The notes under the pieces are model-generated. The model did no database searches, was not told the origin of the DNA, and saw only the letters and a program-made list of their open reading frames with translations. The position numbers were made by a program, and so were the translations under genes. Positions 34,922 to 35,554 of a stretch of 45,926 nucleotides of DNA are shown in pieces. The stretch comes from Pseudomonadota bacterium (GTDB lineage: Bacteria; Pseudomonadota; Alphaproteobacteria; SHVZ01), in NCBI GenBank assembly GCA_016195085.1, contig JACQAG010000010.1, positions 1 through 45,926 on the forward strand, in the 5' to 3' direction. Position 1 is the first letter of the stretch; each line of letters opens with the position of its first letter.

Positions 34922-35464
34922 TCAGAAGCGGAGTGCCACCCGTCCGAATCCGGCACCGTTGAAGGCATGACGGCCGCCGCGGTCGATGGCATCGATCGAG
35001 CGGTCGACGCCGGATTGCGGAATGGGTTCGTAGAGGCGCGCCTCGACCGGCGCGTTGCCCAATGCGGCGACGATGCGCGGACGTACGCGATGCCAGTCAA
35101 GCCCGCCAAGGCCGCAGCCCAAGGGCGGCACGGCGATGCTGACGATGCGCTCGTCGAGAGTGAATTCGCGAAGCGCCAACAGCCCGGCCTCGATGTCGTC
35201 CAGGCGCGATTTCTCGCTCCAATGGCGCTTGGTCGGGAAGGCAACGAGGCGTTGCTTGGTATCGGCGGCATGGGTGATCAAGAGGGCGCCCGGCCGGATC
35301 TGTCGCCGCTTGCAGGCCTCGACATAGGCCGCATGGTGGGCCGGCCAGCGCCGGCGAAACTGCAGGGCGAGACCGCGGTCCATGACGCCCACGCAATTGA
35401 CCGGATCGATGAGCGCCTCGGCATCGTCGTCGAGCAGATTGCCGATGCAGCTTCTGACTGACAT
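34922..35464 (-). CDS. Stand-alone DarG-like macrodomain protein
   Basis: A 180-residue macrodomain protein. The motif series is close to the macrodomain of DarG: GNLLDDDAEALIDPVNCVGVM, RGLALQF, FPTKRHWSEKSRLDDIE and PPLGCGLGGLDWHRVRP. In DarG/TARG1-type enzymes this fold removes ADP-ribose from DNA bases or glutamate side chains, and the Lys of FPTKRHW (Lys79 here) is the key catalytic residue; it is present. One usual Asn is Asp in ALIDPVN. DarG normally follows its toxin DarT, but no DarT-like gene is next to this one and the C-terminal DarG extension is absent. About 35 C-terminal residues beyond the fold match nothing known to me. Start ATG 35464. Confidence 0.85.
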   Translation of the reverse strand: MSVRSCIGNLLDDDAEALIDPVNCVGVMDRGLALQFRRRWPAHHAAYVEACKRRQIRPGALLITHAADTKQRLVAFPTKRHWSEKSRLDDIEAGLLALREFTLDERIVSIAVPPLGCGLGGLDWHRVRPRIVAALGNAPVEARLYEPIPQSGVDRSIDAIDRGGRHAFNGAGFGRVALRF

Positions 35465-35525: not shown

Positions 35526-35554
35526 ATGCAATTTAAATTGCATTTTAGCTAAAA
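35526..35554. promoter_or_regulatory. Two overlapping perfect palindromes in a divergent promoter
   Basis: ATGCAATTTAAATTGCAT (35526-35543) and TTTTAGCTAAAA (35543-35554) share one base and lie between the divergent macrodomain gene (start 35464) and the 35675 gene. A related but imperfect TTTTGCTAGAGCTAAC occurs at about 35610-35625. These AT-rich sites look like operators; the binding protein is unknown. Confidence 0.45.

Follow-up and report, generated by a model that had tools for sequence, protein, structure and literature searches.

DarTG is a phage-defence system, and a macrodomain of the DarG type that is encoded without a toxin beside it raises the question of what such a protein does. 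We analysed one such gene in a window of 45,926 nucleotides, by which we mean the whole stretch of DNA studied. The following features were assigned:

34922..35464, minus strand: gene for a solo DarG-type macrodomain protein of 180 aa plus stop (ORF call, profile matches, codon-position GC)
35021..35464, minus strand: macrodomain, residues 1-148 (AlphaFold2 model superposed on 5m3e and 5m3i)
34925..35020, minus strand: C-terminal tail, residues 149-180, replacing the second half of DarG of about 190 aa (pLDDT; homologue searches)
35402..35407, minus strand: D20-P21, equivalent to Taq N19 and T20 (N19D private; T20P common to other solos)
35396..35398, minus strand: N23 (Taq N22), kept (alignment; TaqDarG mutagenesis, PMC5179494)
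35228..35230, minus strand: K79 (Taq K80), predicted catalytic lysine, kept (alignment; PMC5179494)
35465..35527, minus strand: possible 21-aa N-terminal extension (upstream ATG; third-position GC 0.52)
35526..35543, no strand: perfect 18-bp palindrome, possible operator (AT-rich stretch upstream of the macrodomain gene)

The open reading frame from 35464 to 34922 was found on the minus strand as first annotated, and its GC content at the three codon positions (0.71/0.49/0.80) was like that of the neighbouring genes. If the in-frame ATG at 35527 were used, the protein would have 201 aa; the 21-aa extension appears less gene-like because of its low third-position GC. The palindrome, ATGCAATTTAAATTGCAT, occurred as a single copy in the genome when 2 mismatches were allowed, which ruled out a regulon controlled through it, and no promoter-like site was found. 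The extra C-terminal tail described earlier does exist. It was mostly modelled with low confidence (pLDDT below 50 for residues 151-174), and no homologue of it was found in the homologue set or in plasmids.

The protein matched Pfam Macro (E 2.6e-15), the NCBIfam profile antitoxin_DarG (NF048014; 195.2 bits, E 1.8e-57, profile positions 4-152 of 338) and the PADLOC DarG profile (194.1 bits, E 1.1e-57). The NF048014 score is under the equivalog cut-off of 250 bits, and that model describes the full-length protein, half of which is absent here. Among PDB sequences, the macrodomains of Mtb DarG (E 3.8e-36) and Taq DarG (E 1.8e-32) were matched. An AlphaFold2 model was built from a 12-sequence alignment (mean pLDDT 84.8) and was confident over most of residues 1-148. 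It superposed on ADP-ribose-bound Taq DarG (5m3e) with a Z of 25.8 and an rmsd of 1.2 Å over 148 residues, and on 5m3i with a Z of 25.8 and an rmsd of 1.1 Å; the Z values for other macrodomains were 19.5 (TARG1) and 17.1 (SCO6735). Profile, PDB and fold matches agree and K79 aligns with Taq K80, as was proposed from the first reading; by homology and predicted fold, residues 1-148 are a DarG-type macrodomain.

Active-site residues are given below in Taq DarG numbering unless marked as query. The query has N8, L9, D19, P20, N22, D28, R29, L31, Q34, T79, K80, H82, W83, G117, G119, L120 and G121. Mutating N22, K29, K80 or G119 is reported to inhibit TaqDarG, with the largest effect for K80 and N22 as the second most important residue (PMC5179494). 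Of these residues, the query retains N22, K80 and G119 and has Arg in place of K29; this Arg is also found in 83 of the 113 DarT-linked DarGs described below. The Asn-to-Asp change noted in the motif ALIDPVN is real. It affects query D20, which corresponds to Taq N19 and is distinct from the catalytically important N22; N19 is absent from the quoted list of ADP-ribose contacts in PMC5179494. Among the 181 aligned homologues, the sole sequences without Asn19 are the query and locus L156. Asn19 and Gly28 each occur in 113/113 DarT-linked DarGs, and the query has Asp at both; the sole other non-Gly residue at position 28 among the aligned homologues is an Arg in L087. At position 76 the query has Ala, whereas Asn is found in 88/88 DarTG loci and in 42 of 52 solos of the redundancy-reduced set. 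N19D, G28D and N76A fall on positions that are invariant in the DarTG loci of these sets, and they are the main reason to doubt full activity. Judged by the alignment, query P21 (T20P), which is common to most solo DarG macrodomains, appears more telling than N19D.

The window was then compared with the toxin system of its own genome. A tblastn search of the window with the genome's own DarT (best E 0.063) and with the C-terminal half of its own DarG (best E 1.5) gave chance-level matches. Thus no DarT adjoins the macrodomain gene and the second half of DarG is missing, as had been stated, and a truncated DarTG relic in place was ruled out. The first-pass annotation had also considered that the protein could be an antitoxin left alone without its DarT. 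A whole-genome DarT search had been set beforehand as a test, and a DarT gene elsewhere with a DarG of its own had been named as a finding against this reading. When the 95 contigs of the source genome were searched with Pfam DarT, one match (211 bits) was obtained on contig C39, where an intact DarT is directly followed by a full-length DarG of 346 aa. The lone antitoxin in a toxin-free genome is therefore the wrong story. The window gene is a second, uncoupled DarG-type domain of its genome, and its macrodomain shares about 51-52% identity with that of the DarG on C39; the genome would thus have two DarG-type hydrolases, one coupled and one uncoupled. A third macrodomain is encoded on contig C77, and at an assembly completeness of 95.9% more genes may have been missed. 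Directly before the C39 DarTG pair (L002, 819-2523; G000:C39) lies a gene with a weak match to a type I restriction specificity domain, which suggests a defence island.

The macrodomain gene was found in one of the seven genomes of its family, which ruled out a family-conserved gene; a search at the level of the order covered these seven genomes again. Its neighbours encode an amidase, a solute-binding protein, an MBL-fold hydrolase, a DoxX protein, an amidohydrolase, a PAS_5 protein and a penicillin acylase. The neighbouring MBL-fold protein had a 38-42% match in five of six relatives and a weak one in the sixth, and the amidohydrolase had weak matches in the family relatives. We counted these ordinary metabolic neighbours, among which there is no defence or repair cluster, against the reading as a repair enzyme, together with the three private changes, the long branch of the query described below, its presence in a single family genome and the failure to find a promoter-like site.

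Homologues were collected from several samples. A match was found in 25 of the 385 genomes surveyed in the class, and the strong matches were mostly full-length DarG. A first pattern scan of genome contigs found no relative. From later pattern scans, the best 80 of 235 confirmed loci on genome contigs and the best 80 of 172 on viral contigs were taken; the pattern of the second genome-contig scan contained PVNCVG and thus favoured Pro20, and the viral and whole-genome sets are fairer in this respect. A macrodomain match was present in 192 of the 194 loci gathered, and 181 were classified after leaving out 3 duplicates of the window's own genome and 8 loci scoring below 100 bits. DarTG was assigned when DarT was detected and at least 100 residues followed the macrodomain, whereas solo means that no DarT was seen in the flank examined, not in the whole genome or virus. 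This gave 113 DarTG loci, 57 solos (query included), 7 long forms without DarT, 2 short forms with DarT and 2 short forms at contig edges; the 181 include repeated entries of identical or almost identical loci, and the redundancy-reduced counts are safer. Solo forms are common, above all in viral contigs. DarT was searched for in five whole genomes that have short forms. None was found in G291, G282 and G471, and in G181, where the short macrodomain is at a contig edge, DarT was on another contig. In G433 (L224, L256; G433:C16), the only DarT match was a fragment of 37 positions, which lies beside a shortened DarG macrodomain, and this locus is, to judge from the fragment, a DarTG in decay.

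For 15 genomic solos, 44 of the 77 called neighbouring ORFs were scanned, and no recurrent neighbour family was seen among the 25 listed, each of which matched one member. On a small contig (L012, 243-3204), a solo DarG macrodomain (about 1498-1950) is found with genes for a NADAR protein, an AlkB-like 2OG-Fe(II) oxygenase and a DUF7146/toprim protein, possibly a repair cassette for ADP-ribose and alkyl lesions. The solo of L011 lies near an SSB gene. Both settings, with NADAR, oxygenase and toprim genes in L012 and SSB in L011, fit a role in nucleic-acid repair or damage reversal. Two phage records were also noted. Escherichia phage vB_EcoS_PJ16 encodes a 146-aa solo DarG-type macrodomain annotated as hypothetical (L250, 2501-2941), which overlaps a DNA adenine methyltransferase gene and, unlike most solos, keeps Thr20. 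The DarG-like protein of Thermus phage phiMa (L248, 1815-3571) is full-length and closely resembles DarG of Thermus aquaticus, and an unannotated 205-aa gene before it may be its DarT.

Do the solo forms differ from the toxin-linked ones? Reduction at 85% identity left 88 DarTG loci and 52 solos (query included), and the positions most associated with the solo state in this comparison were 20, 31 and 85. Position 20 was Thr or Ser in 88/88 DarTG loci. In the 52 solos it was Pro in 31, Thr in 12 and Ala in 9, so that Pro or Ala occurred in 40/52 solos against 0/88 DarTG loci. Ile or Val was found at position 31 in 87/88 DarTG loci, and Leu in 34/52 solos; position 85 was acidic in 32/52 solos. 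T20 and V31 are described as ADP-ribose contacts in TaqDarG (PMC5179494). With a signature score that counts P/A20, L31 and D/E85, a value of at least 2 was reached by 41 of 56 solos (query excluded) and by 0/113 DarTG loci. The query is a short macrodomain with no DarT in the flank examined, carries all three changes (P20, L31, E85; score 3/3) and thus belongs to the solo group as defined.

Since the three sites had been picked on the first data set, with the query in it, further viral loci were fetched. The 160 loci were reduced to 37 by dropping those with at least 85% identity to the first set or to each other, which left 18 solos, 18 DarTG loci and 1 long form without DarT. P/A20 was found in 11/18 solos against 1/18 DarTG loci (Fisher p 0.0009), in scans that used VN[TP]VN beside a second pattern and so favoured Thr and Pro over Ala. 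A score of at least 2 was found in 9/18 solos against 0/18 DarTG loci (p 0.001). The association of position 85 taken by itself was not reproduced in this held-out viral set (4/18 solos against 1/18 DarTG loci, p 0.34). In a 398-genome sample of the phylum, 29 of the loci were read and 21 were strong. Thr20 was present in 17 of the 18 full DarTG loci and Ala20 in one (L239), and none had an acidic residue at 85; there were also one long form at a contig edge without DarT and two shortened forms with Thr20 and Asp85. Counter-examples thus occur on both sides, as the phage-record solos L249 and L250 carry Thr20 and Ile31, and Ala20 was seen in L239 and in the one DarT-linked DarG of the held-out set. 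On these alignments, solos carry active-site changes (T20P/A, I/V31L) that are almost never seen in DarT-linked DarGs.

The solo label was scattered over a poorly resolved tree (27 changes, 52 rows), where the solos did not form one supported clade. On the best tree, which is weakly supported, the state of position 20 required 20 changes. An independent-pairs test across supported branches had only 4 pairs, with a mean of 2.3 for and 0 against the association (median p 0.5), too few for significance. Some close pairs point to repeated change. With the three sites set aside, the solo L090 (Ala20) shares 81% identity with the DarTG locus L104 (Thr20), and the solo L130 (Pro20) shares 70% with L002 (Thr20), which is the genome's own DarG; the solo L087 and its DarTG partner L132 (89%), in contrast, both have Thr20. 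The query itself has a long branch (2.48 changes per column), and no group was placed next to it with support.

What, then, is the function of the window protein? It is a real and well-classified stand-alone DarG-type macrodomain, and probably a functional one. With somewhat more belief than doubt, we take it for a stand-alone DarG-type ADP-ribosyl hydrolase, most likely DNA-repair-like, that removes base ADP-ribose (thymine first) left by a DarT-type toxin through Lys79 and Asn23, as DarG does through K80 and N22. The protein would then be expressed and active, with T-ADPr on DNA as its substrate. By analogy to DarG, the lysine would act on the anomeric carbon in the distal ribose, with release of the base, and N22 would position the modified base (PMC5179494, PMC9411070); the complete mechanism of DarG-type hydrolysis is described as still elusive (PMC9411070). 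Because the DarT-binding half of DarG is absent, the protein would act by lesion reversal only and never by holding the toxin. The missing half should not be needed for reversal, since the TaqDarG macrodomain alone is reported to rescue E. coli from DarT and to suffice as antitoxin (PMC5179494), and this also makes a stand-alone protective role plausible. The benefit would be protection, possibly from a foreign DarT, or from the DarT of its own genome should that toxin leak.

The protein may instead be an active ADP-ribosyl hydrolase with another main substrate, such as uracil-ADPr in RNA, an ADP-ribosylated protein or a small ADP-ribose derivative, and the changes of Thr20 to Pro/Ala and Ile31 to Leu would reflect the shift. 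Such a shift would fit the finding that the ADP-ribose contacts T20 and V31 (PMC5179494) show the strongest association with the solo state. In addition, TaqDarG and SCO6735 are reported to reverse uracil-ADPr as well (PMC13036486), and soluble ADP-ribose derivatives have been suggested as targets of phage macrodomains (PMC7824862, PMC9503650). However, the query retains Lys80, His82 and the Trp on the thymine side (W83), and its closest folds are those of DarG, not MacroD, and we regard a different main substrate as rather unlikely. It is quite unlikely, in our view, that the gene is a decaying remnant, half of an old DarTG copy that diverges without function. The three private changes at near-invariant positions, the long branch, the lack of a match in the six family relatives and the unconserved tail could be explained in this way, and G433 offers an intermediate of such decay. 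Yet both the reading frame and the codon-position GC are intact, the catalytic residues are retained, most of residues 1-148 are modelled with confidence, and the window holds neither DarT nor a C-terminal DarG remnant; the three-site solo signature is also unexpected in a dying gene.

Beyond the reading as a base ADP-ribose hydrolase, the shared re-tooling of the solo forms is the more interesting point compared with the story of a lone antitoxin. We propose tentatively, and with more doubt than belief, that DarG macrodomains which lose DarT and the toxin-binding half repeatedly undergo the same re-tooling of the ADP-ribose pocket, with Pro or Ala for Thr20, Leu for Ile/Val31 and in many cases an acidic residue directly behind the lysine-tryptophan motif. 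They would form a widespread, virus-rich class of stand-alone enzymes tuned against foreign DarT-type or related base ADP-ribosylation. The window gene would represent this class on a chromosome, kept as a toxin-independent second line beside the genome's own DarTG. The signature sites offer a direct mutagenesis test of a toxin-coupled against a free hydrolase. In a literature search of partial coverage, no account of a stand-alone DarG subgroup or of its changes at positions 20 and 31 was found.

Among known systems, the query is closest to the DarG macrodomains of Thermus aquaticus and M. tuberculosis (5m31, 5m3e, 5m3i), to which it aligns structurally with 43% identity across 148 residues and an rmsd of 1.1-1.2 Å. 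The catalytic Lys, N22, H82, W83 and the GxGxG loop are common to both. Unlike DarG, the query has neither the C-terminal half nor an adjacent DarT, and unlike Taq DarG it has T20P, V31L and Glu85 together with the private changes N19D, G28D and N76A. SCO6735 of Streptomyces coelicolor (PDB 5e3b) has the same fold and is likewise stand-alone. It is reported to be a thymidine-ADPr hydrolase that rescues cells from DarT and to have Gln for the catalytic Lys (PMC9411070), whereas the query has Lys and is much closer to DarG. Human TARG1 (C6orf130), which reverses T-ADPr (PMC8501950), shares the fold and has a Lys at the same place at 19% identity, but of its pair Lys84/Asp125 the aligned Asp125 position is Gly in the query.

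Phages offer further comparisons. Macrodomains are described as widespread in phages (PMC9503650). Stand-alone NADAR proteins, including those of phages, correspond to the hydrolase half of a DarT antitoxin type on its own, and for the phage forms a role in defence against the ARTs of the host has been suggested (PMC11125620); their fold is unrelated to that of the query, and they act on guanine, not thymine, ADP-ribose. AdfB of ICP1, a 77-aa anti-DarT phage protein that is thought to bind DarT (PMC11481870), protects from DarT without a toxin partner but, unlike the query, has no macrodomain. While AdfB would bind DarT itself, a common solo DarG macrodomain with an active-site signature of its own would counter the toxin enzymatically, through repair of the lesion.
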